Source: an uncultured Solobacterium sp. (GTDB lineage: Bacteria; Bacillota_I; Bacilli_A; Erysipelotrichales; Erysipelotrichaceae). From it: a stretch of DNA of 32,854 bases. Below the pieces are notes generated by a model. It was not told the DNA's origin. It was given only the letters and a program-made list of their open reading frames with translations, and made no database searches. Made by a program: the position numbers and the translations under genes. How positions within the stretch are numbered: the stretch's first letter is position 1; every line of letters starts with the position of its first letter. The stretch lies in the NCBI GenBank assembly GCA_946415785.1, contig CAMKTV010000011.1:1-32854 (forward strand), written 5' to 3'. Of this stretch, positions 1,911 to 28,613 are shown piece after piece.

Positions 1911-1916
1911 ATTATA
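1911..1916 (-). promoter_or_regulatory. -10 box of cshB (leaderless start)
   Basis: On the minus strand the hexamer is a perfect TATAAT, ending 7 nt before the cshB ATG. The usual -10 to +1 distance puts the transcription start at or next to the ATG. No good -35 is seen. It lies back to back with the ispH -10. Confidence 0.6.
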
Positions 1917-1922
1917 ACATGT

Positions 1923-1928
1923 TAAAAT
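1923..1928 (+). promoter_or_regulatory. -10 box of ispH (leaderless start)
   Basis: TAAAAT ends 6 nt before the ispH ATG, with no Shine-Dalgarno between. The perfect palindrome TAACATGTTA (1915-1924) joins this box to the opposing cshB -10. Confidence 0.5.
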
Positions 1929-1934
1929 TGGATT

Positions 1935-2804
1935 ATGGAAATCATAAGAGTAGTGCCAAGTGGCTATTGTAAAGGCGTTATAAATGCAATCAATCTTGTT
2001 AAAAAAACAAGGCAGGATTATCCTTTTGAAAAGATTTATATTCTTGGAATGATTGTTCATAATACTTTTGTTTCTAATGAATTAAAGAAATTAGGAATCA
2101 TTTCTTTAGATGATACAAATAAGAGTAAAGAAGAATTATTAGATGAAATAAAAGAAGGCATAATCATTTTTACAGCTCATGGAATTAGTGACAAAATTAA
2201 ACAAAAGGCAATCGCTAAAGGATTAATAACTGTTGATGCAACATGCAGTGATGTATTAAGAACGCAAAATATTGTCAAAGAATATTTAGCTAAAGATTAT
2301 GATGTAATCTATTTTGGAAAAAAAGGTCATCCTGAAGCAGAGGCTGTTTTATCTTTATCGCCAGCTATTCATCTGTTGACTTCAAAAGAAGATGTTGATG
2401 TTTTAAACATTCATAATGAAAAAATATTTGTGACAAACCAAACAACAATGTCCTATCTTGAACTAGCTGATGTCTTTAAATATCTAAAAGAAAAATATCC
2501 TCATTGTCTAATTGAAGAAGAAATATGTAAAGCTACTTCTTCTCGTCAAAAAGCTATCATGGATATTGTTGATGGTAATGTTTTATATGTTGTCGGTGAC
2601 AGTAAATCAAATAATACCAACAAATTAGTAAGTTTAGGTAAACATAATTTTAAAAAAGTTTATCTCATTAATTCTAAAAATGATATTAATAAAAATGACC
2701 TTGTCGGTCAAAATAAGATTTATGTAACTGCTGGGGCAAGTACACCACCAGTTTTAATTGATGAAACAATTGAATATTTAAATTCATTAGCTTCTGAATT
2801 TTGA
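1935..2804 (+). CDS. ispH: 4-hydroxy-3-methylbut-2-enyl diphosphate reductase (IspH/LytB)
   Basis: This is the last enzyme of the MEP isoprenoid pathway; it reduces HMBPP to IPP and DMAPP with a 4Fe-4S cluster, in the cytosol. The three cluster cysteines are in their expected settings: Cys12 ('PSGYCKGV'), Cys104 ('DATCSDV') and Cys198 ('EEICKATSSRQ'). The substrate-binding motifs 'GHPEAEA' (131-137, with the catalytic Glu), 'TNQTTMS' and 'SNNTNKL' are also present. Length 289 aa is normal. It implies the cell makes isoprenoids by the MEP route. The gene is divergent from cshB with a 31-bp gap, and its 3' end overlaps the flippase gene tail to tail by 18 bp; no terminator is visible there. The ATG sits 6 nt after a TAAAAT box with no Shine-Dalgarno. 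Confidence 0.97.
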   Translation: MEIIRVVPSGYCKGVINAINLVKKTRQDYPFEKIYILGMIVHNTFVSNELKKLGIISLDDTNKSKEELLDEIKEGIIIFTAHGISDKIKQKAIAKGLITVDATCSDVLRTQNIVKEYLAKDYDVIYFGKKGHPEAEAVLSLSPAIHLLTSKEDVDVLNIHNEKIFVTNQTTMSYLELADVFKYLKEKYPHCLIEEEICKATSSRQKAIMDIVDGNVLYVVGDSKSNNTNKLVSLGKHNFKKVYLINSKNDINKNDLVGQNKIYVTAGASTPPVLIDETIEYLNSLASEF

Positions 2805-4424
2805 TAATAAAGATTTAGGTGATATTTTTTCAACACCAAAGATATGCTGAGGCAAATTGATTTTGGCACTGATTAAATAATATAAAGAGATAAAGACAAT
2901 ACCGATGCCACCCATCTTTAAAATATCCAACAATCTTGAACTATATTCAAAAGGAATAAAATAATCGGCAATTATACAAGGAAGGCAGGCAATTAAGGCA
3001 CAAATGAGAATTATAAAGCCTCTTTTTAATGACTGCACAAAACGAATTCCGAATCTCTTTTTTAATATTAAAAGATAAGCACCAATTACAAATAAACTGC
3101 TAAGTAATGATGAGAAAGTCATTCCATTAGCACCAAAATGTTTAACCAAGAAGAAGAAACTAATAAATTTAATCATAATTGAGCCGATTAATGTTAAGAC
3201 TGCTTCTTTTCTTAAACGTAAAGTAATCATGATACTAGAAATGATTGGTGCAATTGTGTCAGAAAAGGCAACTAGATTAGACAATCTAAATAAATTAGTT
3301 CCTAAATCTAAATTGGTATTGCCATACATGATGAAATAAATATCTCTGGCAAAAAAGATAAAGATAATAATGATTGGTATCAAGATATATAAAACAGTAT
3401 CAATAATCTGAACAACCTGCTTGCCAAGTTTATTGATATCCTGCTGCTCAAGTGTTTCCACAAGGTAAGGAACTAAACCAGCAGAAAAGCCGATTGTCAA
3501 AACTTGAGGAATTGAATGTAATTTATTGCAATTGGCCAACAGGATACCCATTGAAAGTTTGGCACTTTCAATATCAACATTTGTTTTAGAAATTGTATTT
3601 AAGAAGAAATTCGCATTGATTAATGGTGAAATACTTCCTAAAAAAGAAATCAATAAATAAGGTAAACCTAAGGCGATTATTTCTTTAATGATGATTGATT
3701 TAAGTTCGGCTGGACTATCTTGTGTTTTTACTAATTCATCAATATGTTTATTATCAGCTTTAGTCATAAAGATGAAAAAGATAATTGTCACTAGTGCTGC
3801 AATAGCTGCAGCAGCAATCGCACAATAGATGGCATAGATTGATTCAAATTTAAATACTTTGACAAATAATAATGCCAAGACAATTATTGATAATACTCTT
3901 ACAAACTGTTCTAAAGCCTGGCTTGAGCCATATAGATCTAAACGTTTAAGCCCCTGATAATAACCTCTGATGGCGCTTAGATATGGTACAAGGATTACCG
4001 CAATTACTAATATTAAAAATAAATTTCTTAAATGATAAACATCACTTTCACTGGCACTGGCGCCACCCATTGCCTGCATCGCTAATGGCTTAGAAGCAAA
4101 CAAAAATATTAATGCCACTATAAAACTTAAGCCCATTATTAAAGAGATGCCTAATTTTTTAATCAGTAAAACTGTCTTATAATCTTGTCTAATATAATAT
4201 CTGGCCACTAATGCTGCAATCGCAAAAGGAATACCAGCACTTGATATCTTAAGCAACAGGTCATAATAAGTATAAGTAACAGAATAAAATGCCATATTAC
4301 TTTCACCTGCTAAAGCACTTAGCGGTGCATAGTATAAAAGGCCTAAAGCTTTAGATATAAAAATACCGAAAGAAGACGTCAAGGCTGCAACAATGACTGA
4401 TTGTTTAACCTTATTCTTATTCAT
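2787..4424 (-). CDS. MurJ/SpoVB-type lipid flippase (MATE-like polysaccharide exporter)
   Basis: A 545-aa polytopic membrane protein with about 14 predicted hydrophobic segments, in the MOP superfamily (PST/MVF branch). The N-terminus, with 'SKALGLLYYAPLSALAGES' and 'YDLLLKISSAGIPFAIAAL', is typical of SpoVB/YtgP-like proteins. Known members flip lipid II or other undecaprenyl-linked sugars across the membrane, so lipid II export for peptidoglycan is the likely role. With no sporulation genes nearby, a vegetative YtgP/MurJ role is more likely than SpoVB. It is the last gene of the run that starts with the DUF948 protein and overlaps the preceding lipoprotein gene by 8 bp (translational coupling). 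Its 3' end overlaps ispH by 18 bp on the other strand. Family confident, substrate inferred. Confidence 0.85.
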   Translation of the reverse strand: MNKNKVKQSVIVAALTSSFGIFISKALGLLYYAPLSALAGESNMAFYSVTYTYYDLLLKISSAGIPFAIAALVARYYIRQDYKTVLLIKKLGISLIMGLSFIVALIFLFASKPLAMQAMGGASASESDVYHLRNLFLILVIAVILVPYLSAIRGYYQGLKRLDLYGSSQALEQFVRVLSIIVLALLFVKVFKFESIYAIYCAIAAAAIAALVTIIFFIFMTKADNKHIDELVKTQDSPAELKSIIIKEIIALGLPYLLISFLGSISPLINANFFLNTISKTNVDIESAKLSMGILLANCNKLHSIPQVLTIGFSAGLVPYLVETLEQQDINKLGKQVVQIIDTVLYILIPIIIIFIFFARDIYFIMYGNTNLDLGTNLFRLSNLVAFSDTIAPIISSIMITLRLRKEAVLTLIGSIMIKFISFFFLVKHFGANGMTFSSLLSSLFVIGAYLLILKKRFGIRFVQSLKRGFIILICALIACLPCIIADYFIPFEYSSRLLDILKMGGIGIVFISLYYLISAKINLPQHIFGVEKISPKSLLSKFRS

Positions 4425-4911
4425 TTGTCTCCTTGTTTGAAATCATAAAATATTGACGATATGTCTTAGACAAATCCTGGTTATTCCATTCAACTAATAA
4501 ATAAATAGTTGGATTATCTTTATTTGATAAACCAGAAATACTGATGCCTTTCATGAAACCATCAGCAGCATTATATTGATTAGGAATAAGTGAATATCTA
4601 TTTTCTTCAAAGATGCCAATATTGGCTGCCATATAATCTGTATAATCAACATCCTTTTCAATCGCAATCGCCTTGATATCATACATTGCTGTTTTTACAT
4701 TATCAATGATGACATAAAAACGATAGCCACCATCAATACGGGTAATTTCATAAGTCAAATCAAAAAACTCACTTTCTTCTAGAAAGTCACTGTGTTCTTG
4801 AATCTGATTAATCATATCAAGATATTTTTCTTTAGCACTATCACTTATTACTTCATCGCCCTTGCATCCTACAAGTAAGATTAATAATAAGCATATTAAT
4901 AATTTTTTCAT
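4417..4911 (-). CDS. small lipoprotein of unknown function
   Basis: The start was placed at the ATG at 4911, giving 164 aa that begin with a clear lipoprotein signal: two lysines, a leucine-rich core and the lipobox 'LVGC' with Cys16 as the lipidated residue. A longer in-frame start (4983) would lie inside tyrS and bury the signal peptide, so I rejected it. The mature part has no motif I recognise; it is acidic at first, then beta-rich with several aromatic residues ('GGYRFYVIID', 'PTIYLLVEWNNQ'), consistent with a small extracytoplasmic domain. It starts 1 bp after the tyrS stop and overlaps the flippase start by 8 bp, so it is made with the flippase. No Shine-Dalgarno is seen, so coupling is likely. 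A partner role for the flippase is only suggested by position. Confidence 0.75.
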   Translation of the reverse strand: MKKLLICLLLILLVGCKGDEVISDSAKEKYLDMINQIQEHSDFLEESEFFDLTYEITRIDGGYRFYVIIDNVKTAMYDIKAIAIEKDVDYTDYMAANIGIFEENRYSLIPNQYNAADGFMKGISISGLSNKDNPTIYLLVEWNNQDLSKTYRQYFMISNKETNE

Positions 4912-4912
4912 C

Positions 4913-6139: not shown

Positions 6140-6140
6140 A

Positions 6141-7130: not shown

Positions 7131-7133
7131 AAA

Positions 7134-7757: not shown

Positions 7758-7761
7758 AGTT

Positions 7762-8145: not shown

Positions 8146-8162
8146 GTTCACCTCGCATTGTT

Positions 8163-8191
8163 ATTTTATATAATTATGAAAATTTTTTCAA
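8163..8191 (-). promoter_or_regulatory. sigma-A promoter of the DUF948-ytxH-ccpA-tyrS operon
   Basis: On the minus strand, -35 TTGAAA (8186-8191), a 17-bp spacer and -10 TAAAAT (8163-8168). The -10 ends 17 nt before the ATG at 8145, leaving a short leader that carries GAGG. This is the best two-part promoter in the window and contrasts with the leaderless ones. Confidence 0.7.
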
Positions 8192-8210
8192 TAAATGAAA
8201 ATAGAAACAA

Positions 8211-10134: not shown

Positions 10135-10860
10135 TTATTCAATTGGAACTTCTTCATTTCGTTCGTCTTCATAAATCTGGCCATCATAACGGATACCATC
10201 GCCAATAATCGCATCATCAACTAATAGACTATCAATTGTTCCACTTACAGGCATACTGGTATTAAATAAATTAATCTGTTTCTTTTTATATTCAATGATG
10301 TCCTTTTTAGAATATTCTTTTATGACATCTTCATTTAAAACATTAGTATTTTTGGCAATCATTAATAGATGTTTTAATGTTTGTGTAATATCTTCTTTTT
10401 TAATTGTTCCAATATAATTCATATTCGAACTAATTAGATGAAGAATATAAATGTCTTTGTAATTATATAGCTTAAAAATATATGCTACTGATTGTCCACT
10501 TTCAGTTTTTAGTTTGCCTTCTTTTTTATAGATTATATAATCATCAGAAAAGATGCTTTCATCTTCCAAGATATGATCAGTATAATATTTTGTATTGATT
10601 ATATTTGAAACATTTAAATTCATAATTATTTTATTGTCATTATATTTTAAGACAATACTCTCTGAATCTAGTGCTTCTTCATTCATATCACTAGGCAAAT
10701 AATAAGAATAATATTTCATTTTATTATTGATACGATAAGTTGAAATATTGTCAATGTGGTCAAAAATATTATTTAAATCATTAAAAAGCTCTTTGTCTTC
10801 AGCTACTTTACAAGCACACAAACATATTAATAAACAAAAGATTAAAATGATCTTTTTCAT
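10135..10860 (-). CDS. predicted lipoprotein, unknown function
   Basis: A 241-aa protein with a lipoprotein signal: 'MKK', a hydrophobic, cysteine-rich core and the lipobox 'LCAC' with Cys17 as the lipidation site (Cys at -2 is unusual). The mature part is long and polar, rich in Asn, Ile, Lys and Tyr, with alternating beta-like stretches, and ends in a short acidic tail ('DERNEEVPIE'). I recognise no family. It lies 12 bp after the radC stop, but a TAAAAT box (10867-10872) ends 6 nt before its ATG and there is no Shine-Dalgarno, so it probably has its own leaderless transcript. It might act at the outer membrane face, as lipoproteins do; nothing more specific can be said. Confidence 0.7.
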   Translation of the reverse strand: MKKIILIFCLLICLCACKVAEDKELFNDLNNIFDHIDNISTYRINNKMKYYSYYLPSDMNEEALDSESIVLKYNDNKIIMNLNVSNIINTKYYTDHILEDESIFSDDYIIYKKEGKLKTESGQSVAYIFKLYNYKDIYILHLISSNMNYIGTIKKEDITQTLKHLLMIAKNTNVLNEDVIKEYSKKDIIEYKKKQINLFNTSMPVSGTIDSLLVDDAIIGDGIRYDGQIYEDERNEEVPIE

Positions 10861-10866
10861 AAAATC

Positions 10867-10872
10867 ATTTTA
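10867..10872 (-). promoter_or_regulatory. -10 box of the lipoprotein gene (leaderless start)
   Basis: Minus-strand TGATAAAAT, an extended -10 (TGnTAAAAT) ending 6 nt before the ATG at 10860 and abutting the radC stop codon. The same ten bases, TGATAAAATG, recur before the VanZ-like gene. Confidence 0.55.
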
Positions 10873-11532
10873 TCATATTAAATTATGGCATTTGAAACTG
10901 TAATAAGAGGTAGAAGATATTATTATATGGTCCAATAAGACAAGACCTAGAAGATTGCAGCCATCTTTTATCTGGCCTGTTATCTTAAAATCTTCTTCAG
11001 AAGGATTGGTGTTGCCACTAGGATGATTATGAGCTATGACAATTGATTTGGCTTTTAATAATAAAGCATTACGATAGATTTCATCTAAGCCTACAACTGA
11101 CCTGTTCCCTGATCCTTTAAATAACGATGAAGCTTTTAAAATCTTGCCGCCCGCATTTAAAAAGACCACAAAGAATTCTTCTTGGTTAGAAAAACCTAAA
11201 CTGAATCTTAAAAAATCAATTAAAACTAAAGGATTTAAGGTTTTATTTTGACTAACTGTTTCAACTCTTGATAATCTTTTAGAGATTTCAAGTATTGCTA
11301 AAATCTCTAAAGCCTTGGCTTGTTTGATGCCTTTAATATTTATTAATTCATCATAACTTAAACTCAAAAGATTATTAAAACCACCAGCTGTATCAATGAT
11401 CTCTTTGGTGAGTGTAAAAACATCTTTATTCTTATATGCTGATTTAATTACTAATGATACTAATTCAACATTATTTAAACTGCTAAACCCATAATTGAGT
11501 GCCTTTTCTCTAGGCAACATATCTTCCATCAT
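10873..11532 (-). CDS. radC: RadC-family JAB/MPN-domain protein
   Basis: A 219-aa protein with an N-terminal UPF0758 helical/helix-hairpin-helix part ('LPREKALNYGFSSLNNVEL' and 'LINIKGIKQAKALEILAI') and a C-terminal JAB1/MPN-like metalloprotease fold. The JAMM signature 'HNHPSGNTNPSEED' (near 168-181) keeps both His, the Ser and the Asp. RadC was once linked to DNA repair; its biochemical role remains unclear. The start was chosen at the ATG at 11532, which overlaps the TGA of the VanZ-like gene (ATGA), so translation is coupled to it. Downstream lies a lipoprotein gene that carries its own -10 immediately after the radC stop. Family certain. Confidence 0.93.
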   Translation of the reverse strand: MMEDMLPREKALNYGFSSLNNVELVSLVIKSAYKNKDVFTLTKEIIDTAGGFNNLLSLSYDELINIKGIKQAKALEILAILEISKRLSRVETVSQNKTLNPLVLIDFLRFSLGFSNQEEFFVVFLNAGGKILKASSLFKGSGNRSVVGLDEIYRNALLLKAKSIVIAHNHPSGNTNPSEEDFKITGQIKDGCNLLGLVLLDHIIISSTSYYSFKCHNLI

Positions 11533-11996
11533 CTCTTACATAATTTATGCCAAAACAAACATGCACAAAGAATGCCACTTGTATCAATCAAAACATCATT
11601 AAATGAGCCAAGCCTATCAGTTATAAATAATTGATGAAATTCGTCTAAACAGGCAAATACAATACAGAATATTATTGATACAAGAATAATCTTTTTAATT
11701 GGATATTCTTTAAAACATTCATAAGCTGAAATAAACAAAATGAAATATTCACTAAAATGAGCGATATTCCTGATATTGTTAGAAAACCATTCTAATAAAA
11801 CCACAAATGTATTAATGTTTAATAAATGACTGGTAATACCATTAGGGTGTCTAGAAGCTAAATCATAAATATAATTCAATAAAGAATTAGCTAAAGAATC
11901 AGAAAGCGCAACTGATTCATCACCACTTTGATTAGAAAAATAGAAGATGGCACAAATAACTATAATAAACCAAGTTGTCTTAATAATTCTTTTCAT
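11529..11996 (-). CDS. VanZ-like membrane protein
   Basis: A 155-aa protein with about four membrane segments. VanZ-family marks are visible: 'FYFSNQSGDES' after the first segment, 'RNIAHFSEYFILF' near residue 77, and 'DEFHQLFITDRLGSFNDVLID' near 118-138, of which the D-E-x-H-Q and DVLID positions are the conserved ones. Some members give low-level teicoplanin resistance; for most, including this one, the substrate is unknown. It overlaps radC by 4 bp. A TAAAAT box ends 6 nt before its ATG and lies within the short gap after the SAF-domain gene, so it can be transcribed from its own leaderless start as well as by read-through. Family confident, function not. Confidence 0.85.
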   Translation of the reverse strand: MKRIIKTTWFIIVICAIFYFSNQSGDESVALSDSLANSLLNYIYDLASRHPNGITSHLLNINTFVVLLEWFSNNIRNIAHFSEYFILFISAYECFKEYPIKKIILVSIIFCIVFACLDEFHQLFITDRLGSFNDVLIDTSGILCACLFWHKLCKR

Positions 11997-12002: not shown

Positions 12003-12008
12003 ATTTTA
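12003..12008 (-). promoter_or_regulatory. -10 box of the VanZ-like gene (leaderless start)
   Basis: Minus-strand TGATAAAAT, an extended -10 ending 6 nt before the ATG at 11996, in the 15-bp gap after the SAF-domain gene. Any -35 would lie inside that gene. Confidence 0.55.
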
Positions 12009-12792: not shown

Positions 12793-12798
12793 TATAAT
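12793..12798 (+). promoter_or_regulatory. -10 box of the ICMT-like gene (leaderless start)
   Basis: Perfect TATAAT ending 6 nt before the ATG at 12805, with no Shine-Dalgarno between. Confidence 0.6.
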
Positions 12799-12804: not shown

Positions 12805-13473
12805 ATGAAAAAATTATTATTAGAAGCTCTGATTAAATTCTTTTCAGGTTTTATAATTATCGCTCTATTATTGTTCGTATCTTCTTTCGATATCAAATGG
12901 TTTAATGCCTGGCTATTTATCTGCCTATTATTTATTCCAATGTTTATTGTCGGCATCATCATGTTTTTTAAAGCACCTGATTTATTAAGGAGCAGATTAA
13001 ATGCCAAAGAAAAAGAAAAGACTCAACAAGGAGTCTTGAAATACAGTGGCTTGATGTTTATTGCTTCTTTTGTATTGGCTGGATTAAATCATCGATTCAA
13101 CTGGTTAAATTGTCCAAATTATGTAATCATTATTTCTTCAATTCTTTTCTTATTGTCATATTTAATGTTTGGTGAAGTATTAAGAGAAAATGCTTATTTG
13201 TCTAGAACAATTGAAGTAAAAGAAAATCAAAAAGTAGTTGATACAGGACTATATGGAATCATAAGACATCCAATGTATAGTGCAACAGTAGTTTTATTCT
13301 TATCAATGCCATTAATATTAAATTCACCTGTATCTTTTATTATTTCTTTAACTTATATTCCACTTATTGTCATAAAAATTAAAAATGAAGAAATGGTATT
13401 AGAAAAAGATCTTCAAGGTTATAAAGAATATAAACAAAAAGTTAAATATCGTTTGATACCTTTTATTTGGTAA
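12805..13473 (+). CDS. ICMT/PEMT-like membrane methyltransferase family protein
   Basis: A 222-aa integral membrane protein with about five hydrophobic segments. Near residue 155, 'YGIIRHPMYSAT' matches the S-adenosylmethionine-binding R-H-P-x-Y signature of isoprenylcysteine carboxyl methyltransferases and phospholipid methyltransferases. Further on, 'IKNEEMVLEKDLQGYKEYK' matches the conserved E-E ... G-Y-x-x-Y end of the fold. The bacterial substrate is unknown; a lipid or small amphiphile is plausible. It stands alone on the plus strand, divergent from the SAF-domain gene, with a TATAAT box just before its ATG and a strong terminator hairpin 45 bp after its stop. Family confident, substrate open. 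Confidence 0.82.
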   Translation: MKKLLLEALIKFFSGFIIIALLLFVSSFDIKWFNAWLFICLLFIPMFIVGIIMFFKAPDLLRSRLNAKEKEKTQQGVLKYSGLMFIASFVLAGLNHRFNWLNCPNYVIIISSILFLLSYLMFGEVLRENAYLSRTIEVKENQKVVDTGLYGIIRHPMYSATVVLFLSMPLILNSPVSFIISLTYIPLIVIKIKNEEMVLEKDLQGYKEYKQKVKYRLIPFIW

Positions 13474-15614: not shown

Positions 15615-15620
15615 ATTATA
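15615..15620 (-). promoter_or_regulatory. -10 box of the S1-pgi operon (leaderless start)
   Basis: Minus-strand TATAAT ending 7 nt before the ATG at 15607, with no Shine-Dalgarno. Confidence 0.6.
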
Positions 15621-15670: not shown

Positions 15671-15676
15671 TATAAT
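15671..15676 (+). promoter_or_regulatory. -10 box of the nifU-like gene (leaderless start)
   Basis: Perfect TATAAT ending 7 nt before the ATG at 15684. A weak -35 candidate, TTACCC, lies 18 bp upstream (15647-15652). Confidence 0.6.
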
Positions 15677-15683: not shown

Positions 15684-15929
15684 ATGGAATATACAGATAA
15701 AGAAAAGCAGATTATTAAGACGATTGAAAAAGTACGTCCTTACATTCAATCAGATGGTGGAGACGTTAACTTCGTCAAATTAGAAGATGATATCGTTTAT
15801 TTAAATGTCTATGGTGCATGTATCGGTTGCAGCGCTTTAGGAGAAACATTAAAAGATGGAGTTGGTGCTCTAATCATGGATGAAGTAGAAGGCATCAAAG
15901 ATGTCAGGTTATATATCCCTGAAGTATAG
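15684..15929 (+). CDS. NifU-like iron-sulfur scaffold (Nfu domain)
   Basis: An 81-aa protein formed only of the NifU C-terminal (Nfu) domain. 'VRPYIQSDGGDVNFVKLED' is the family signature, and 'GACIGCSA' near residue 50 holds the C-x-x-C pair that binds a bridging 4Fe-4S cluster between two subunits. Such small Nfu proteins carry clusters to client enzymes; IspH, encoded earlier in the window, is a possible client but that is speculation. The gene stands alone, divergent from the S1-pgi operon, with its TATAAT box 7 nt before the ATG and a short AT-rich terminator after the stop. Confident. Confidence 0.93.
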   Translation: MEYTDKEKQIIKTIEKVRPYIQSDGGDVNFVKLEDDIVYLNVYGACIGCSALGETLKDGVGALIMDEVEGIKDVRLYIPEV

Positions 15930-18277: not shown

Positions 18278-18283
18278 ATTATA
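18278..18283 (-). promoter_or_regulatory. -10 box of the AI-2E-type gene (leaderless start)
   Basis: Minus-strand TATAAT ending 6 nt before the ATG at 18271, within the 22-bp gap after the ABC transporter gene, whose 3' end would hold any -35. Confidence 0.6.
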
Positions 18284-18293: not shown

Positions 18294-20171
18294 CTAATCT
18301 AATTGTGCCTTTCCTGTATAAAGTTGATAATAACGGCCTTTTAGTTTTAACAGGTCTTCATGGTCGCCTCTTTCAATAATTGTTCCATTTTCTAAAACAA
18401 TTATTGCGTTGGCATTTCTAACGGTCGATAGACGATGGGCAATCACAAATGTCGTCCTGCCTTTCATTAATTCATCAAGTCCTTTTTCAATTAATTTTTC
18501 GGTGTATGTATCAATAGAAGATGTTGCTTCATCCAAGACCATAACTGGTGGATCTGCTACAGCACAACGCGCAATATTTAATAATTGCCTTTGCCCTTGT
18601 GATAAATTAGTGCCATTGGCTTGTAATAATGTATTGTAGCCCTGTGGCAATCTGCTTATAAAAGAATCAGCATTACATAATTTGGCTGCTTTTATACAAT
18701 CTTCATCACTTGCTTCTAGGTTCCCATAACGGATGTTGTCCATTACCGTTCCAGAGAATAGATTTGTATCCTGAAGAACCATACCAATAGATTTCCTTAA
18801 TGATTCCTTATCGATATCTTTTATATCAATACCATCATAAGTAATCTGTCCTTCTTGAATATCATAAAATCTATTTAATAAATTAGTGATAGTTGTCTTG
18901 CCTGCACCAGTAGAACCTACTAATGCAATTTTTTGGCCTGGTTTAGCATATAAAGATACATCATTAAGCACTTGTTTGTTTTCTACATAAGAGAAACTAA
19001 CATCTTTAAAACGAACATCTCCCTTTAATTCTACTAGCTCACCATTTTCTTTTTCCCATGCCCAACGATGAGTCTTAAAATCTGCTTTGATTAGTTCTTC
19101 ACAATCTTCTAAAACATTAATCAATTTAACTTTACCTTCATTTATTTCGCCATCTTTATCCATTAAGTCAAAGACTCTTTCGGCTCCTGCTAAAGACATC
19201 ATGAAACCATTAAATTGTTGAGACAAATTAGATACTGGGCCTGAGAATTGTCTTACATACAAAAGGAAAGAAGCCAAGACACCTAAAGACATTTGATTAT
19301 TGATACACATATAAGCACCGACAACTGCTACAATAGCATAGGCAAAATAAGCTAAATTAGCATTTACTGGGAACATGATTGAAGCAATCATGTTTGTTCT
19401 AACAGAATTTTCATATAGTTCATCATTTAAGACTTTAAAGTCTTGTAAGACTTTGTTTTCATGATTAAATACTTTAACTACTTTTTGACCACTAAAATAT
19501 TCTTCTACATAGCCATTGATATTTGATACTTGAACAGTTAGTTTAGCGAAATATTTATTAGATTTTTTCGCAACTATTGAAGTAACATAAACAATAAACA
19601 ACATTGATGCCAAAACAATAAGCATCAATCTGAAATTAAGAATAGCCATCATTACAAAACAGCCAATTAATGTTGTAATAGTGTTAATTAATACCGGTAT
19701 AGTTTCCGCAATCATGGGTCTAGTCATATCGACATCATTTGTATAATAAACCATGATCTGGCCATGAGTCTTGCGATCAAAGAATGATACCGGGAAGGAT
19801 TGCATCTTCGCAAATAATTCCTGTCTTAAATTATCTAATACTCCAGTTGAAATTAAAGACATCATTTTTTGTTTTATATAAGTTGCGCTGACACCTGCAA
19901 TATATATGCCCATCATGATGCTTAACATCTTCGCAAAGCCTGACATATCAACATTACTTTTTCCAATGAATGGAACAATATAATTATTAATTATTGGTGT
20001 AAAGAAATAAGAAGAGGCAACACCAGTCAAAGAAGATAGAATAGTGCAAATGAAAGCTAAGATAAATCTTCCTTTATGATGTTTATTGATATATGACAAA
20101 AGTCTTCCTATTGTTCCAAGGACATTATTAGCACGGGCCGTTCTTAGCTGATGGTATCTAGGCTTAGACAT
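18294..20171 (-). CDS. ABC exporter, catalytically complete half (heterodimer subunit)
   Basis: A 625-aa half-transporter: six membrane helices (about 35-330), then an ATPase domain. Walker A 'GSTGAGKTT', signature 'LSQGQRQ', Walker B 'VMVLDEATSSID' with the catalytic Glu, and the switch His in 'IAHRLST' are all present. It pairs with the next gene (20164-21903), whose ATPase site is degenerate, as in BmrC/BmrD, LmrC/LmrD and TM287/288; these export drugs or lipids. The start was set at 20171 (MSKPRYHQL), where ATGTCTAA overlaps the partner's stop by 8 bp with an AGGGGG ribosome-binding site; a longer in-frame start lies inside the partner gene. An insert of about 40 residues before the ATPase domain (around 350-390) is common in this subgroup. 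Family confident, substrate unknown. Confidence 0.92.
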   Translation of the reverse strand: MSKPRYHQLRTARANNVLGTIGRLLSYINKHHKGRFILAFICTILSSLTGVASSYFFTPIINNYIVPFIGKSNVDMSGFAKMLSIMMGIYIAGVSATYIKQKMMSLISTGVLDNLRQELFAKMQSFPVSFFDRKTHGQIMVYYTNDVDMTRPMIAETIPVLINTITTLIGCFVMMAILNFRLMLIVLASMLFIVYVTSIVAKKSNKYFAKLTVQVSNINGYVEEYFSGQKVVKVFNHENKVLQDFKVLNDELYENSVRTNMIASIMFPVNANLAYFAYAIVAVVGAYMCINNQMSLGVLASFLLYVRQFSGPVSNLSQQFNGFMMSLAGAERVFDLMDKDGEINEGKVKLINVLEDCEELIKADFKTHRWAWEKENGELVELKGDVRFKDVSFSYVENKQVLNDVSLYAKPGQKIALVGSTGAGKTTITNLLNRFYDIQEGQITYDGIDIKDIDKESLRKSIGMVLQDTNLFSGTVMDNIRYGNLEASDEDCIKAAKLCNADSFISRLPQGYNTLLQANGTNLSQGQRQLLNIARCAVADPPVMVLDEATSSIDTYTEKLIEKGLDELMKGRTTFVIAHRLSTVRNANAIIVLENGTIIERGDHEDLLKLKGRYYQLYTGKAQLD

Positions 20172-21903
20172 TGGCCACCCCCTGAAGCTGAGTATTGTAT
20201 AAATCACGATAGACTTCATTTCTTTCTAATAATTCATCGTGATTTCCAATATCCTCAATTCTTCCTTCATTCATGATGATGATGCGATTGCATTCTTTAA
20301 CGGAGCTTACTCTTTGGGCAATGATAATCGTTGTCATTCCTTTAAGTTTTTCTTTTAAAGCAATCTGAATCTTTTTATCTGTATCAGTATCTACAGCACT
20401 TGTGGAATCATCTAAGATAATAATCTTTGGCTTTTTTAATAACGCTCTAGCAATACATAATCTTTGTCTTTGACCACCAGAAACATTGCTGCCGCCCTGT
20501 TCAAGAACAGTATTATAGCCATCAGGAAAAGACATGATGAAATCATGCGCCTGTGCATTCTTACATGCTTCAATTATTTCTTTCTTGCTTGCATCTGGAT
20601 TTCCCCAACGCATATTCTCTTCAATTGTTCCAGAGAATAAGACGTTCTTTTGTAAAACCACAGAAACGCCTTCTCTTAAATTATGTAAAGAATAATCTTT
20701 AATATCTTTACCACCAACTTTTATTTTGCCTTCATAAATATCATATAGACGTGGTATTAATTGTACTAAAGTAGACTTGCCTGCACCTGTTGGTCCTAAG
20801 ATACCAATTGTTTCTCCACTTTCAATCTTTAAATTGATATTAGACAATGTTGGATTTATAGCTTCCTTGAAATATTTGAAATACACATTATTAAGTTCTA
20901 TTGAACCATCTTCTATTACTAAATCACTATCTTTATTCTTGTCATCTAAATTAGGTTTTTCATCTAATACTTCATTAGCTCTATCAACACTGGCCCTAGC
21001 ATTTACAATCTGCATCAAAGCCATTGATAAGCCTAATAAAGAGAATAATATTTGTCTAACATATGAAAGATATGACATAAACTGGCCAGTTGTTAAAGAG
21101 CCAAAAATAATAAATCTGCCACCAAACCAAGCAACAGCTATCATACATGCATACATGACAAGTTCAAAGAAAGGCTGATTTAAGATAATGATATTTTCCG
21201 CCTGTCTTTGAGCTTTTAAAACATCGCTAGATACATGATCAAATTTCTTTTCTTCATAATCTTTTCTGACAAAATTCTTAGCTACTCTAATGCCTTCAAT
21301 GTTTTCTTTTAAGCCAGCATTCATATTGTCAAATTTTGACATCATAACTCTAAATCTTGGATGAGCGTTAGTCATAATATAGATCAAGCCACAGCCCAGA
21401 ATCGGAATGGCTATCGCAAATATTAAAGACAAAGAACTGTTAAGTCTTACGACCATATAAAAAGTTAATATCAGATTAAATGGTGCTCTTACCATCATTC
21501 TGACAATTGATGTGTAGGCCATTCTAAGCATTCTCATATCTGATGTCATTCTTACAACAATTGAAGACACAGGATATTTTTCAATATTTTTAAAATCATA
21601 TGTCTGTATCTTCTCTAGCATTGCTGTTCTAATATTTCTTACAAATTTACATGATGCAATGCTGGCAAAAACACCAGAAAAAGCGCCACATGCCCCACCA
21701 ATTAAAGCTAAGGCAACCATGATTAAACCTAACCTAATAATATAATTAACATCCCCACCTCTACTAGTAATGCCTTCATCAATTATTAAAGACATCACAT
21801 AAGGAATTGCTAAGTCAAAAACAACTTCCAAGATGACTAACAGCGGTCCAAGAATACAAGCCAGCCAGCCATCTTTTGTATAATCTTTTAATAGTTTAAA
21901 CAT
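20164..21903 (-). CDS. ABC exporter, degenerate-site half (heterodimer subunit)
   Basis: A 579-aa half-transporter with six membrane helices and an ATPase domain: Walker A 'GPTGAGKST' near residue 380, canonical signature 'VSGGQRQR' and Walker B 'IIILDDSTSAVD'. The usual catalytic Glu after Walker B is Asp and the switch His is Gln ('IIIAQRVSS'), so its own site should hydrolyse ATP poorly. The next gene supplies the active site; in return this subunit gives the intact signature. Such asymmetric pairs are a known class. The two genes overlap by 8 bp. A GATAAT box (21912-21917) ends 8 nt before the ATG and there is no Shine-Dalgarno, so this is likely another (near-)leaderless start. Confidence 0.92.
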   Translation of the reverse strand: MFKLLKDYTKDGWLACILGPLLVILEVVFDLAIPYVMSLIIDEGITSRGGDVNYIIRLGLIMVALALIGGACGAFSGVFASIASCKFVRNIRTAMLEKIQTYDFKNIEKYPVSSIVVRMTSDMRMLRMAYTSIVRMMVRAPFNLILTFYMVVRLNSSLSLIFAIAIPILGCGLIYIMTNAHPRFRVMMSKFDNMNAGLKENIEGIRVAKNFVRKDYEEKKFDHVSSDVLKAQRQAENIIILNQPFFELVMYACMIAVAWFGGRFIIFGSLTTGQFMSYLSYVRQILFSLLGLSMALMQIVNARASVDRANEVLDEKPNLDDKNKDSDLVIEDGSIELNNVYFKYFKEAINPTLSNINLKIESGETIGILGPTGAGKSTLVQLIPRLYDIYEGKIKVGGKDIKDYSLHNLREGVSVVLQKNVLFSGTIEENMRWGNPDASKKEIIEACKNAQAHDFIMSFPDGYNTVLEQGGSNVSGGQRQRLCIARALLKKPKIIILDDSTSAVDTDTDKKIQIALKEKLKGMTTIIIAQRVSSVKECNRIIIMNEGRIEDIGNHDELLERNEVYRDLYNTQLQGVANV

Positions 21904-21911
21904 ATTACTTT

Positions 21912-21917
21912 ATTATC
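21912..21917 (-). promoter_or_regulatory. -10 box of the ABC exporter operon (near-leaderless)
   Basis: Minus-strand GATAAT ends 8 nt before the ATG at 21903. No Shine-Dalgarno follows it. Confidence 0.4.
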
Positions 21918-21995
21918 TTAACATTTAATTTAAAACATAAAAATATTTAACTTATAAAATAATAATTTATCTTATAATTTATATTCTTTTCTTAA

Positions 21996-22001
21996 TATAA
22001 T
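21996..22001 (+). promoter_or_regulatory. -10 box of the PIG-L/GPH operon (leaderless start)
   Basis: Perfect TATAAT ending 6 nt before the ATG at 22008; no Shine-Dalgarno. The region upstream to 21904 is almost pure A/T. Confidence 0.6.
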
Positions 22002-22007
22002 ATAGAT

Positions 22008-22778
22008 ATGCTTACAAAGACTATTATTAAATTTGCTGCAAAGCTACCAAAGATAGACAGTTTTAATACCTATTTATTTGTCGGCCCTCATCCTGATGAT
22101 ATTGAAATAGGTGCAGGGGCAACAGTCGCAAAATTAATTAAATTGAATAAAGAAATTCATTTTTTGATTTGTACTGATGGTAGATATGGCAATGGTCACA
22201 TGTTAGATAAGACTTATGATGAAGTTGCCAAAAAGCGAAAAGAAGAATCGATTGCCTCAGCTAAATTTTTAGGTTTAAAAGAAGAAAATATTCATTTCTT
22301 AAATCTATCTGATGGTGGTTTTTATGAATATGATGATTTAGTTAAAGGGATAGCGAAAGTAGTTGGCGAAGTTAATCCTGATATTATCTTTGGACCAGAT
22401 TCATTATCTAAATCAGAATGTCACAAAGATCATTTAAATGTTGGTAATGCCGTTAAACAGATCGCCTGCTTTGCGCCATATCCAGGAATAATGGAAAATT
22501 ATGGAGCCAAGAAAGCAGATGTCAAAGCAGTTGCCTTCTATATGTCGGCTAACTGTAACAGGTACTACAAAACAAGTGGTTATTTTAATACTCAAATAAA
22601 ATCAGTTACTGATTTTCATAAATCTCAATTTATTGATAATGAATTTGATTCCATCAAATTATATTTAAAATTAAGAAGTATCGAATATGGCCTTAAATGT
22701 TTTTCTTTAAGCGGAGAAGGGTTTAGAGTCTTAGGTACTACTCATATGCACTGCTTACCAGAAAGTGGAGGTAAATGA
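22008..22778 (+). CDS. PIG-L/LmbE-family deacetylase
   Basis: A 256-aa cytosolic zinc-dependent deacetylase of the PIG-L family. 'GPHPDDIEIGAGAT' (near residue 26) holds the zinc His and the Asp pair (P-H-P-D-D), and 'CHKDHLNVG' (near 143) supplies the later metal and active-site residues. Relatives remove the acetyl group from N-acetylglucosamine in bacillithiol or mycothiol precursors, GlcNAc-PI, or diacetylchitobiose. No signal peptide is seen. It overlaps or nearly touches the GPH symporter gene, which suggests the substrate is a sugar brought in by that symporter; an N-acetyl-sugar is the simplest guess. The bacillithiol BshB role is possible, but no bshA/bshC is seen. Family certain. 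Confidence 0.9.
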   Translation: MLTKTIIKFAAKLPKIDSFNTYLFVGPHPDDIEIGAGATVAKLIKLNKEIHFLICTDGRYGNGHMLDKTYDEVAKKRKEESIASAKFLGLKEENIHFLNLSDGGFYEYDDLVKGIAKVVGEVNPDIIFGPDSLSKSECHKDHLNVGNAVKQIACFAPYPGIMENYGAKKADVKAVAFYMSANCNRYYKTSGYFNTQIKSVTDFHKSQFIDNEFDSIKLYLKLRSIEYGLKCFSLSGEGFRVLGTTHMHCLPESGGK

Positions 22779-22780
22779 TA

Positions 22781-24259: not shown

Positions 24260-24279
24260 GCTTAGCTTAGATATTTTTT
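24251..24279 (+). terminator. Rho-independent terminator of the PIG-L/GPH operon
   Basis: A perfect 11-bp stem, AATATCTAAGC (24251-24261) with GCTTAGATATT (24265-24275), a 3-nt loop and six T's (24274-24279). It includes the last codons and the stop of the symporter gene. Confidence 0.85.
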
Positions 24280-24284
24280 CATAT

Positions 24285-24314
24285 GAAAAATAAGAAGCCT
24301 ATTGGCTTCTTATT
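24285..24314 (-). terminator. Rho-independent terminator of the DUF362 gene
   Basis: A perfect 11-bp stem, AATAAGAAGCC (24289-24299) with GGCTTCTTATT (24304-24314), a 4-nt loop, and on the minus strand a TTATTTTTC run. It overlaps the DUF362 stop codon and lies 10 bp from the opposing terminator. Confidence 0.8.
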
Positions 24315-25206: not shown

Positions 25207-25224
25207 GTTTCGCTCCTTAATTAA

Positions 25225-25230
25225 ATTATA
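25225..25230 (-). promoter_or_regulatory. -10 box of the DUF362 gene
   Basis: Minus-strand TATAAT overlapping the ileS stop codon. It ends 18 nt before the ATG at 25206, so this transcript has a short leader with a GGAG ribosome-binding site. Confidence 0.55.
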
Positions 25231-27949
25231 AACTAATATCTTTTAATACACCTACACACCTGTCACATAATCCTTCAAGATTATCTGTTTCTGTTATATT
25301 CCAGCATCTTGGACATACTACGCCGTCTGCTTTTAATACTTTAACACCACAAACTTCATATTTGTTTAATTCTTCATTAGTTAAAGTTACTTTAGAAACA
25401 ATTAACCATTGATTAATCTTATCACCAAAATTATCTTGCAATAATTTCTTATCTTCATCATTTACTTCAAGTAATACATGAGCTTCTAAAGATTTACCAA
25501 TTACTTTTTCTTGTCTGGCTTCTTCTAAAGCTTTAAATGCATCATCTCTAATTTTATGAAGTCTAGCGAAGTTATTATTTATTCCTTCTTCGCCTTCATA
25601 TTTTTCTACTTCAGGGAATAAAGTATAATGAACACTATTTTCATCTGGTTTAAAGAATGAATATACTTCTTCACATGTAAAGCAAAGTACTGGACTCCAT
25701 AATTTAACTAAGACATCAGTAGCTTTTATTAAGACAGATTGAACTTGTCTTCTGCGTAATGAATTCTTTCCATCACAATATAAGATATCTTTTGCATAAT
25801 CACAATAATATGATGATAATTCATTAGTCATGAAATTAGTCATTGTGCTTGTTGCATTTACAAAGTCATAATTTTCATAAGCTTTCTTAACTTTTTCTAA
25901 CATCTTATTTAAGGCTACCATTATGAATTTATCAATTGGTTCTAATTCTTTATAAGGAATTAGTTCACCTTCAAAGTCACATGTATTTCCTAGTAAGAAT
26001 CTAAAGGTATTTCTGATTTTACGATATTGATCAGAAACTTGTTTTAAGTTAGAGTCTCCAATTCTCATGTCGGCTCTAAAGTCTTCGCTGGCTGCCCATA
26101 GTCTTAAAATATCAGCACCATATTTATCAATAATATCAAGCGGATTAACGACATTGCCTACTGATTTATGCATTGCGTTTCCTTTTGAGTCACATACATA
26201 GCCATGTGATAATACTGATTTATATGGAGCGGTTCCATGAGTTGCGACAGAAACGATTAATGATGAATTGAACCAACCACGATATTGGTCAGATCCTTCA
26301 AAATATAAGTCACATGGATATTCATATCCTCTTGCAATTAATTCATTCCAAGAAGAACCAGAATCAAACCAGACATCCATGATGTCTGTTTCTTTTGTGA
26401 AATTACCATTAGGAGATGCTGGATTAGAATAACCTTCTGGTAATAATTCTTTAGCATCTTTTTCAAACCAGGCATTTGAACCTTCTTTTTCAAATATTTT
26501 GGCAATATTTTCAAAGACATCTTTATCAATAATTGGTGTTTTATCTTCGTTATAGATAATTGGAATTGGAACACCCCATAGTCTTTGTCTAGAGATACAC
26601 CAGTCCTTACGGTCTTTAATCATATTTGTTAATCTGACTTCACCAAAAGAATTCCACCATTTGACATTTTTAATTGCTTCTAACAATTGTGGTTTAATTT
26701 TTTCAATTGAAGCGAACCATTGAACAGTAGCTCTAAAGATTACTTTCTTCTTTAAACGATCATCATGTGGATATGAGTGGGTTACCCATTCCATCTTTAA
26801 TAGACTTCCTAATTCATCTAATTTAACACAAACATCTTTATTCGCATCAAAGACAAATTTGCCTTCTAAATCTGGTCCAGCTTCTTTAGTTAAAACACCT
26901 TTATCATCTACTGGACAAAATGCTGGTAAGCCATATTTTTGGCCAACATAGAAGTCATCTAAACCATGACCTGGCGCCGTATGAACGCAACCCGTTCCAT
27001 CTTCATCAGTAACATGATTTCCTAAGATAACAACTGAATCCCTCTCAGGATAGAATGGATGTTTTACAGTAATGCCTTCTAGTTCTTTTCCTTTAAATGT
27101 CTTAACTACCTCACCACTTAATTCAAATTTTTCAAGCAGTGCATCTTTCATCTTGCTTAAGAAAATAAGTTTGCCTTTTTCTGTTTTAACAACAGCATAT
27201 TCTAGATCTGGATGTAAACAAATAGCTAAGTTAGCAGGAATAGTCCAAGGAGTAGTTGTCCAAATCACGAATCTTTCATCACCTTCAAGAACCCCTTTGC
27301 CATCGCTTACATCAAAAGCGACATAGATAGTTGGATCTTTAACATCAAAATAAACGATTTCACTATCCGCAATAGCTGTCTCTTGATATGGTGACCAATA
27401 GATTGGTTTTAGACCTTGGAAAATCATTCCATCAAGTGCCATCTTTGCGAAGCATCTAACTTGTCTAGCTTCAAATTCTGGATTGAAAGTAATATAAGGA
27501 TGCTCATAATCAGCTATTTGTCCTAAACGCTTTTCAGTGGCCATTTGATTGGCGATTTGACCTTTCGCATATTCTGCACATTTTTCTCTAAATTCTTTAG
27601 GACTAACTTCTTTACGATTAACACCTAATTTTTGAATTGCATTTTCAATTGGTAAACCATGAGTATCCCAACCAGGGAAAAATGGTGTATAAAAACCAGC
27701 CATCGCTTTTGATCTGACAATGATATCTTTAATGATTCTATTCATTGCGGTACCAGCATGCAGATTACCATTGGCATATGGTGGACCATCATGTAAGACA
27801 AAAGGTTTCTTGTCTTTATTCTTTTCTAAAATCTTGTGATAATAATCATCTTCTTGCCATCTTTGTAGAATAGTTGGTTCTTTACTAGGCAAGTTGCCTC
27901 TCATTTCAAAATCAGTTTTAGGCATTTGTAATGTGTCTTTGTATTCCAT
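25226..27949 (-). CDS. ileS: isoleucyl-tRNA synthetase (IleRS)
   Basis: Charges tRNA-Ile and edits valine. The start was set at the ATG at 27949 (MEYKDTLQMPKTDFEMRGNL) with GGAGG 4 nt before it, giving 907 aa; a longer in-frame start falls in the leader. The class I signature has the form His64-Ala-Gly-Thr67 ('PPYANGNLHAGTAMNR'), and the second reads 'KGNAMHKSVGN' in place of KMSKS. The editing-domain motif 'WTTTPWTIPANLA' is normal. The C-terminal zinc site has 'CPRCW' and 'CDRC'. Altered signatures occur in some Firmicute IleRS; see findings. Expression is under the T-box at 27962-28143. The upstream sepF gene is a usual neighbour. Confidence 0.97.
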   Translation of the reverse strand: MEYKDTLQMPKTDFEMRGNLPSKEPTILQRWQEDDYYHKILEKNKDKKPFVLHDGPPYANGNLHAGTAMNRIIKDIIVRSKAMAGFYTPFFPGWDTHGLPIENAIQKLGVNRKEVSPKEFREKCAEYAKGQIANQMATEKRLGQIADYEHPYITFNPEFEARQVRCFAKMALDGMIFQGLKPIYWSPYQETAIADSEIVYFDVKDPTIYVAFDVSDGKGVLEGDERFVIWTTTPWTIPANLAICLHPDLEYAVVKTEKGKLIFLSKMKDALLEKFELSGEVVKTFKGKELEGITVKHPFYPERDSVVILGNHVTDEDGTGCVHTAPGHGLDDFYVGQKYGLPAFCPVDDKGVLTKEAGPDLEGKFVFDANKDVCVKLDELGSLLKMEWVTHSYPHDDRLKKKVIFRATVQWFASIEKIKPQLLEAIKNVKWWNSFGEVRLTNMIKDRKDWCISRQRLWGVPIPIIYNEDKTPIIDKDVFENIAKIFEKEGSNAWFEKDAKELLPEGYSNPASPNGNFTKETDIMDVWFDSGSSWNELIARGYEYPCDLYFEGSDQYRGWFNSSLIVSVATHGTAPYKSVLSHGYVCDSKGNAMHKSVGNVVNPLDIIDKYGADILRLWAASEDFRADMRIGDSNLKQVSDQYRKIRNTFRFLLGNTCDFEGELIPYKELEPIDKFIMVALNKMLEKVKKAYENYDFVNATSTMTNFMTNELSSYYCDYAKDILYCDGKNSLRRRQVQSVLIKATDVLVKLWSPVLCFTCEEVYSFFKPDENSVHYTLFPEVEKYEGEEGINNNFARLHKIRDDAFKALEEARQEKVIGKSLEAHVLLEVNDEDKKLLQDNFGDKINQWLIVSKVTLTNEELNKYEVCGVKVLKADGVVCPRCWNITETDNLEGLCDRCVGVLKDISL

Positions 27950-27961
27950 AAATCCTCCAAT

Positions 27962-28008
27962 AAAAATAAAAAGGCAGCCCAAGGGCGCAAACGCGCGGTA
28001 CCACCTTT
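27962..28008 (-). terminator. regulated terminator of the ileS T-box
   Basis: AAAGGTGGT (from 28008 down) can pair with GGGCTGCCTTT just before a T5-A-T5 run, with an inner GC-rich part (GCGCG, TTT, GCGC). The 5' arm is the T-box itself, so terminator and antiterminator exclude each other. Confidence 0.7.
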
Positions 28009-28143
28009 GTTTATAACTTTTCTCTTAACGCGAGTAACGTCTTATCTTATGTATTAATAAGATGCTTGTAAGTGATATCTTAAATAAATCCATGCCCCTT
28101 TCCACCAAACAGGACTCTCTATAATTTCAGTTATTTAAGCGTG
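27962..28143 (-). ncRNA. T-box riboswitch, isoleucine (AUC specifier)
   Basis: On the minus strand, in the ileS leader. The T-box bulge AAGGTGGTACCGCG lies at 28007-27994, and the stem I marks AGAGAGTCC and GGTGGAAAGG are present upstream. A stem I helix pairs CTTAAATAA with TTATTTAAG, and directly after it comes 'AGATATCACT', giving AUC (28076-28074), an Ile codon followed by a purine, as specifier. The alternative hairpin pairs AAAGG of the T-box with CCTTT and is followed by a T-rich run (27962-27972), a transcription terminator. Uncharged tRNA-Ile should open it and turn on ileS. Confidence 0.92.
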
Positions 28144-28158
28144 TCTTAGTCTTTGCAA

Positions 28159-28560
28159 TTAATTTTCTTCTCGATTGTTTACATCAATCTTGCCAGCAAC
28201 CTGCAGATTTCTTGGTGAACATAATATCACATTTTCACCAATCATCTTAATTGAGCCGCCAACACCAAATACAACACCATTTAAAAAGTCGATTGTTCTT
28301 TGGCGTAATTCACTTGGCATCTTATGCAAGTTGATGCAACAAGCTCTTTTATGTTTAATGTGGTTAGCCATTTCACCAGCTTCTTCAAAACCTCTAGGTT
28401 CAAATAAAACGATATTAGCATTTGTAGGAATAGCACTTGCAGTTTCATCTTGTGCCTGTTCATAAGCACTTACTGCTTTGGCTTCTTCTTCTGAAAGTTC
28501 TAATTCATTTTCTTCTTCTTCTGGTGCAATAAATTCTTTAATATTTTGAATAAAACCCAT
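28159..28560 (-). CDS. sepF: cell division protein SepF
   Basis: A 133-aa protein with an N-terminal amphipathic membrane-binding stretch ('MGFIQNIKEFI'), an acidic linker (about 14-45) and the SepF/DUF552 core ('ANIVLFEPRGFEEAGEMANH', then 'KRACCINLHKMPSELRQRTI' and 'GVVFGVGGSIKMIGENVILC'). SepF anchors FtsZ at the membrane and helps form an orderly septum. A GGAG site precedes the ATG; the likely -10 (TAAAAT, 28583-28588) leaves a leader of about 15-20 nt. It is followed directly by the ileS T-box leader, as in the conserved sepF...ileS order of Firmicutes, though here the usual ylmG, ylmH and divIVA genes between them are missing. Confident. Confidence 0.92.
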   Translation of the reverse strand: MGFIQNIKEFIAPEEEENELELSEEEAKAVSAYEQAQDETASAIPTNANIVLFEPRGFEEAGEMANHIKHKRACCINLHKMPSELRQRTIDFLNGVVFGVGGSIKMIGENVILCSPRNLQVAGKIDVNNREEN

Positions 28561-28607
28561 AACTTGCTCCTTTTACTTTCTTATTTTAACACAAGAGAGT
28601 TTTAATA

Positions 28608-28613
28608 TATAAT
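28608..28613 (+). promoter_or_regulatory. -10 box of the DUF3899-like gene (leaderless start)
   Basis: Perfect TATAAT ending 6 nt before the ATG at 28620, with no Shine-Dalgarno. It lies divergent to sepF in a 59-bp gap. Confidence 0.6.

Follow-up and report, generated by a model that had tools for sequence, protein, structure and literature searches.

Do the first genes of this stretch start their messengers directly at the ATG? The stretch studied (the window, 32,854 nucleotides (nt) long, with a guanine plus cytosine (GC) fraction of 0.309) is contig C11 of a draft genome of an uncultured Solobacterium sp., which has 1.37 Mb in 71 contigs and is 87.88% complete. A previous inspection of its letters (the sequence-only reading) had proposed that in ten of its genes a TATAAT or TAAAAT ends 6 or 7 nt upstream of the ATG and a Shine-Dalgarno (SD) sequence is absent. 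Here, TATAAT or TAAAAT is called a strict box, and the number of nt between the end of the box and the start codon is called the spacer. Boxes and spacers were found as proposed in all ten genes, and this recurrent promoter class, with its -10 fixed 6-7 nt before the ATG and no SD, was borne out in stretches beyond the window. The data point to ordinary sigma-A promoters of the leaderless kind, with a strict -10 so placed that the mRNA would start at the ATG, a reading to which we give a probability of about 0.9.

The frequency of strict boxes was studied in a sample of 32 stretches outside the window (636 kb, 47% of the genome), for which all in-frame ATGs near the coding start were taken as candidate starts, none of them being picked by its motif. 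Among 389 candidate ATGs of 266 first genes, the box was found 33 times at spacer 6 and 8 times at spacer 7, with 3, 1 and 3 cases at spacers 4, 5 and 8, and 3, 2, 4, 3, 0, 4 and 4 cases at spacers 9 to 15. The plot of box positions, which the sequence-only reading had set as its own test, shows in this way a sharp peak at 6 and a smaller one at 7. When the 45 nt upstream of each start were randomised, a mean of 4.66 boxes and a maximum of 14 in 400 rounds were obtained at spacers 6-7, versus the 41 observed. The same control in the window (2000 rounds) gave a mean of 0.32 and a maximum of 3, versus 9 observed, corresponding to 9 of the 17 first genes defined by the script (21 candidate ATGs; the AI-2E-type transporter gene was missed by the start window). 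In the whole genome, TATAATN6ATG was found 127 times, versus 42 for TATAATN12ATG, which keeps the same reading frame, and 26 for the reversed pattern.

Counted by gene, 55 of the 571 genes in the sample (9.6%) have a strict box, and first genes are enriched over operon-internal ones: the box precedes 26/106 divergent first genes and 15/160 same-strand genes with a gap of at least 40 nt, versus 12/268 internal genes (2/37 at the stretch edges). The 80 divergent first genes without the box have an SD match of at least 5 in 36 cases and of 4 in 23, and neither in the remaining 21. The claim that leaderless is the common form for first genes was overstated, given that share of divergent first genes outside the window, but leaderless-type starts appear unusually frequent and compact in this genome.

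The sequence around these starts was also analyzed. At spacer 6, TATAAT was found 27 times versus 1.6 expected, and TAAAAT 12 times versus 1.2, with 0-3 cases for each of the remaining one-base variants; the further enriched hexamers at this distance were SD-like (AGGAGG, 7 cases, and others) and came from SD-led genes. Relaxed boxes (TANNNT, single changes) were tried as well and rejected; they brought background and no signal. An SD match of at least 5 was present at 3/64 box-ATG starts, a chance level when compared with 195/3407 ATGs inside genes. The base at -1 is a pyrimidine in 48/51 spacer-6 starts versus 150/239 SD-led starts (p = 2e-6), which fits the proposal because transcription initiation is expected at a purine following a pyrimidine. 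ATG is preferred as start codon, the box being found before 41/389 ATG, 4/63 GTG and 1/178 TTG candidates of the sample. No -35 signal was detected, the best match to TTGACA at 16-18 nt averaging 2.72 of 6 versus 2.64 in the shuffles, and the difference from leadered promoters (3.0 versus 2.72 of 6) was not significant (p = 0.14). As a separate observation, terminator-like hairpins whose T-tract reaches the next predicted leaderless -10 box were seen at L194:15211 (+), L099:808 (+) and L195:6256 (-, reverse-strand position), the three of them containing the -35 region of that next gene; a loose hairpin search flagged a candidate terminator abutting 7/64 of these promoters.

The bacterial -10 box ends at -7, with six bases between the box and +1, so a spacer of 6 places +1 on the A of the ATG. 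In the mechanism that we propose, a strict TATAAT or TAAAAT -10, with TG before about a third of the boxes and no recognisable -35, would make this A the transcript base +1 at spacer 6, or +2 at spacer 7, which allows for a 1-nt leader. The AUG-starting mRNA would then be initiated without SD pairing, as for known leaderless mRNAs. Many other first genes, together with most operon-internal ones, retain an SD or unclear starts. The letters themselves show the box, its spacing, the missing SD, the pyrimidine at -1, the peak beyond the window and the differences between orthologues; where the transcripts begin, how they are translated and in which direction the promoters changed (discussed below) we infer from the sequence.

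Several observations weigh against this reading. TG one base before the -10 is a partial and not a specific feature (20/64 leaderless versus 14/52 leadered promoters), and T at -1 is also frequent in SD-led genes (122/239). At spacer 7, G occupies position -1 in 6/13 starts, including those of the S1-domain and NifU-like genes of the window, whose mRNAs may carry the 1-nt leader. A small peak is present in operon-internal genes as well, with 9 cases at spacer 6 and 1 at spacer 7 for 323 ATGs. The window is richer than the sample (7/10 versus 26/106 divergent first genes, Fisher p = 0.005), so that "common form" fits the window better than it fits the genome. In the same-genus genome G058 the box precedes only 4/34 divergent first genes, though 17/175 genes overall. 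In addition, the 16S rRNA 3' end, which holds the anti-SD, was not found in the source draft.

A different explanation would be that the box and the ATG act in translation, as an unstructured, AT-rich signal aiding SD-free ribosome binding, with the true promoter located further upstream. The low GC of the region is in line with this, as are the non-SD starts of other phyla, for which the sections consulted of PMC5397173 describe an AT-rich bias around -20 to -10 that is not firmly assigned. However, among the AT-rich hexamers at spacer 6 TATAAT and TAAAAT stand out, the next ones reaching 3-4 cases; the SD-led ispH orthologues described below carry instead a -10-like box 17-40 nt upstream; and between divergent genes separated by 22-46 nt a second promoter would hardly fit outside the coding DNA, so we consider such a signal very unlikely.

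It could also be argued that the start codons were misassigned, the real start being a downstream SD-led codon and the first ATG lying in or before the leader, since the gene caller used has no trained start model. This would not yield a spacing peak one base wide, and the eleven SD-led ispH proteins align with the source protein from residue 1, with an ATG at that same place, which makes the explanation very unlikely. Chance in an AT-rich genome, helped by the eye of the reader for a pattern, would account for a window richer than the genome, as a chosen window would be, but the peak is repeated in independent stretches, and the shuffles and the N12 control exclude chance as the whole cause; we regard it as extremely unlikely.

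The boxes of the window are collected in Table 1, with two palindromic regions from elsewhere in the same genome. The cshB and ispH genes are divergent, with 31 nt between their ATGs, and so are the S1-domain and NifU-like genes, with 76 nt. The spacer of the S1-domain gene holds from ATG 15607 and not from TTG 15610, and that of the AI-2E-type gene from ATG 18271 and not from GTG 18277. Only for seven of the ten genes is it certain that a transcript can begin there; the boxes of the putative lipoprotein, VanZ-like and AI-2E-type genes (starts at 10860, 11996 and 18271) sit in gaps of 12, 15 and 22 nt behind same-strand genes, which in the first case is gene 10873-11532. Pfam backs the proposed families for eight of the ten, cshB only as "DEAD-box helicase", whereas the lipoprotein gene and gene 28620-28973 gave no match at E 0.001, in such a way that the name "DUF3899-like" given to the latter was not supported. 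An ABC exporter gene had been suggested as an eleventh member, but its box is GATAAT at spacer 8: AATAAT, CATAAT and GATAAT together have 0 cases at spacer 6 versus 2.0 expected, and no clear peak exists at spacer 8 in the sample.

Table 1. Boxes preceding predicted leaderless starts in the window, and palindromic regions elsewhere in the same genome.
Feature	Box	Box position	Strand	Spacer (nt)	Start codon or gene position	Pfam or remark
cshB (DEAD-box helicase)	TATAAT	1911..1916	-	7	start codon 1903-1901	DEAD/Helicase_C
ispH (LytB)	TAAAAT	1923..1928	+	6	start codon 1935-1937	LYTB
Putative lipoprotein gene	TAAAAT	10867..10872	-	6	10135-10860	no match
VanZ-like gene	TAAAAT	12003..12008	-	6	11529-11996	VanZ
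ICMT/PEMT-like gene	TATAAT	12793..12798	+	6	12805-13473	ICMT
S1-domain gene	TATAAT	15615..15620	-	7		S1
NifU-like gene	TATAAT	15671..15676	+	7	15684-15929	NifU
AI-2E-type transporter	TATAAT	18278..18283	-	6		AI-2E_transport
PIG-L gene	TATAAT	21996..22001	+	6	22008-22778	PIG-L
Gene 28620-28973	TATAAT	28608..28613	+	6	28620-28973	no match
ABC exporter	GATAAT	21912..21917	-	8	20164-21903	membership unsupported
Palindromic region, beyond window	ATTATATAAT	region at C18:5877-5904 (L257:1501-1528)		6 to both ATGs		shared ATTATATAAT
Palindromic region, beyond window	ATTATATAAT	region at C29:13083-13110 (L261:1501-1528)		6 to both ATGs		shared ATTATATAAT

The window also contains a T-box leader before ileS, at 27978-28162 (-), detected with Rfam RF00230 at 76.1 bits and E 5.9e-17, under the curated gathering score of 93 and thus missed by the default scan; it begins at the end of gene 28159-28560, the sepF of the sequence-only reading. 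With ileS led by a T-box, leadered and regulated genes would coexist with leaderless ones. The IleS protein of the window has 72-81% identity (best segment) to seven of its nearest records (L001-L006 and L019), all of them from metagenome-assembled genomes (MAGs) of Erysipelotrichaceae, five of which come from cattle, goat or buffalo gut.

The promoters of orthologous genes were compared in 30 relatives, coded here with G-numbers, as the families of the class are coded f1, f8 and so on. An ispH orthologue was found in 25 of them, and in nine (G058, G314, G299, G296, G297, G140, G133, G300 and G147) it is preceded by a -10-like box at spacer 6 and lacks an SD match of 5. Judged by eye, G127 too has a box at spacer 6, provided that its start is taken at an ATG located 15 nt before the aligned position, and variants were found in G099 (TAATAT at 6) and G230 (TATACT at 9). 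The eleven SD-led relatives have a match of at least 5, and in G076 and G037 an SD of 4 and no box were found. In the ispH tree, a branch with a support of 100 in the Shimodaira-Hasegawa-like approximate likelihood ratio test (SH-aLRT) has on one side the source genome, G058, G314, G299, G296, G297, G140, G099, G133 and G300; three state changes suffice, or two without G099 and G230, with states assigned by eye and the deeper branches poorly resolved. The neighbouring cshB is divergent from ispH in 24 of the 25 relatives and had no match in the Longibaculum stretch.

A similar pattern was detected for a HIGH-nucleotidyltransferase gene (PF05636), which we take to be tmcAL and which has orthologues in 29 of the 30 relatives. 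TATAAT or TAAAAT lies at spacer 6 in eight (G058, G299, G297, G314, G296, G300, G140 and G230), an SD of at least 5 was found in twelve, other boxes in G099, G304, G216 and G147, and G133, G127, G085 and G243 are unclear; in Erysipelothrix aquatica, a counter-case, the ATG is preceded both by TAAAAT at 6 and by an SD of 5. Leaderless starts at both ispH and tmcAL are predicted in seven genomes. At these two genes, the nearest relatives share the predicted leaderless form, whereas in more distant ones the box stands further upstream and an SD separates it from the ATG. In our reading, the leader would have been lost at ispH and tmcAL on the stem of the source clade, and other parts of the family would have leaderless genes of their own.

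Other genes were less informative. NifU orthologues (29/30) have TATAAT at spacer 7 also in G058, the rest being mostly SD-led or unclear, and say little on leader loss. The AI-2E-type gene had matches in 22/30 genomes, and among the 16 loci compared a box at 6 was found in G058 (TATAAT, together with an SD-like match of 5) and in G099 (TACAAT), with an SD in most others. For PIG-L a match was found in only 1 of the 30 genomes, so it is unusable for comparison.

The count of TATAATN6ATG versus TATAATN12ATG was extended to 296 genomes of the class. The pooled N6:N12 ratio is 1.54 in f1 (27 genomes) and 1.71 in f8 (32), versus 0.83-1.47 in the other 21 families, among which f3 (1.47) and f16 (1.44) are the next highest. 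The Bonferroni limit was passed by 12 of the 296 genomes, all from f1 or f8, the source genome being the most significant. The distribution in f1 is patchy, as G049 (31:47) and G067 (41:55) illustrate. By hand count, a ratio of at least 2 is reached by 16 of the 39 named genomes, such as RGIG586 (58:13), RGIG7099 (92:26) and RGIG622 (64:11), and no excess was found in Longibaculum muris (120:134) and Erysipelothrix aquatica (40:38). Gene-based counts gave, beside that of G058, 13/192 in G099, 11/111 in G216, 4/72 in G205 (f8, GC 0.60), 0/107 in G049 and 1/111 in Erysipelothrix aquatica; G314 (2/42 genes in 46 kb) and G299 (1/82 in 92 kb) are samples too small for a peak, their whole-genome counts being 64:11 and 92:26.

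Two further observations concern these counts. In f8, the second family with the excess, G205 (L152-L157) has 20 copies of TATAATN6ATG and 1 of the N12 pattern at its GC of 0.60. In G320 (the genome of L026, Heyndrickxia sporothermodurans), the exact sequence TATAATATATTTATG recurs often in the listed part of one chromosome, and this repeated element inflates its N6 count. The 16S 3' tail could be located in 4 of 15 genomes (G250, G326, G205 and G178), and three of the twelve significant genomes (G250, G205 and G178) have a normal anti-SD tail, so the anti-SD has not been lost in them.

The arrangement of divergent genes was studied as well. In the sample and the window together there are six back-to-back pairs of predicted leaderless genes 22-46 nt apart, besides the more separated S1/NifU-like pair, and no excess of such pairs was found (6/58 divergent pairs versus 4.7 expected). 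The tightest of them follow the pattern CAT-N6-ATTATATAAT-N6-ATG, in which a single palindromic 10-bp -10 would serve two divergent genes within a 22-bp intergenic region. This pattern was found in 4 of the 296 genomes, twice in the source and in G058 and once in G042 (f8) and G066 (f20), and its reversed control in none; the G066 occurrence, between open reading frames of 32 and 63 codons, is likely due to chance. In the source genome the two pairs are a 1-phosphofructokinase-like PfkB gene with murE, and tmcAL with a 162-codon gene without family match that is presumably yceD-like. Both palindromic promoters are kept in G058, so that the PfkB/murE pair is present in two species. For tmcAL/yceD-like, the palindrome and both 6-nt spacer lengths are kept in five species (source, G058, G297, G314 and G296), while the letters of the spacers vary, and ATG gives way to GTG at one of the two genes in G297 and at both of them in G296.

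These comparisons lead us to favour, slightly beyond even odds, that many promoters in a clade of gut Erysipelotrichaceae have lost their leaders, in the extreme leaving a 22-bp unit in which one 10-bp palindromic -10 with 6 nt on each side would make two opposite leaderless mRNAs, leaderless starts being there a derived gain and not an ancestral remnant. A difficulty for this history comes from G250 (56:20), G303 (36:14) and G308 (31:8), which show the genome-wide excess and yet are SD-led at both ispH and tmcAL; the history is less simple because of them, and these two loci do not represent whole genomes.

If the 5' ends are confirmed, around a quarter of the divergent first genes would be leaderless beside SD-led genes in one low-GC Firmicute. 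The SD-led relatives would make the gain or loss of leaders at the same genes testable promoter by promoter, with a bearing on the view of leaderless genes as ancestral remnants. A gene finder that depends on the SD could probably misplace such starts in MAGs of Erysipelotrichaceae.

The sequence-only reading overstated the novelty of leaderless genes for low-GC Firmicutes, as they had been reported earlier in several of them (PMC3160421, PMC6212727, in the parts consulted of both). No paper on leaderless genes in Erysipelotrichaceae or Erysipelothrix was found in the open-licence literature, judged from titles and the beginnings of abstracts. In the survey of Zheng et al. 2011 (PMC3160421), the text of which does not contain "Erysipelotrich", the sections consulted describe leaderless genes in 56/209 genomes of Firmicutes, with a mean of 4.2% and up to 16.6%, a range inside which the 9.6% found here falls; they are concentrated in Lactococcus-Streptococcus, Oenococcus-Leuconostoc and a set of five Mycoplasma genomes (mean 18.3%). 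The likeness extends to the Pribnow box, which directly precedes the start codon and has the form TAtAAT in low-GC genomes, several of them showing a TG peak before it. The same sections restrict leaderless starts to the proximal gene of a transcript, and interpret leaderless genes as ancestral remnants; by contrast, many relatives are SD-led at the same genes in our comparison.

Experimentally mapped starts are available for another Firmicute, Streptococcus pneumoniae D39, for which the consulted part of PMC6212727 reports that the transcripts of 70/768 operons (9%) begin right at the first coding base, that 449 start sites have only a -10 or an extended -10, and that a Firmicute leaderless gene is translated efficiently, whereas the starts described here are predicted. 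The approximately 25% of divergent first genes with a strict box is a proportion with a denominator different from that of the pneumococcal operon share. In Mesoplasma florum, most start sites follow the -10 box by 6-7 bases, the same distance as here, but only a few fall exactly on start codons according to the text consulted of PMC7745072. Regarding translation, the account consulted in PMC10783764 describes initiation of leaderless mRNA at the 5'-terminal AUG assisted by the initiation factor IF2.

The closest relatives of the palindromic unit are the bidirectional promoters in which two divergent start sites 7-25 bp apart share a near-symmetric -10; in the portion consulted of PMC10268837, which cites Warman 2021, their usual spacing is 18 bp and in many cases one of the two RNAs is a non-coding antisense product. 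The palindromic promoters of the source genome likewise have one palindromic -10 and, going by their letters, predicted start sites within that interval, at 23 bp, but both products would be leaderless mRNAs of genes. A 22-bp two-way leaderless arrangement was not found described in the open-licence literature, judged mostly from titles and abstracts. The kind of promoter is already known in Firmicutes; the present analysis adds the lineage, the proportion of its genes concerned, the contrast between orthologous promoters and the two-way form of 22 bp.

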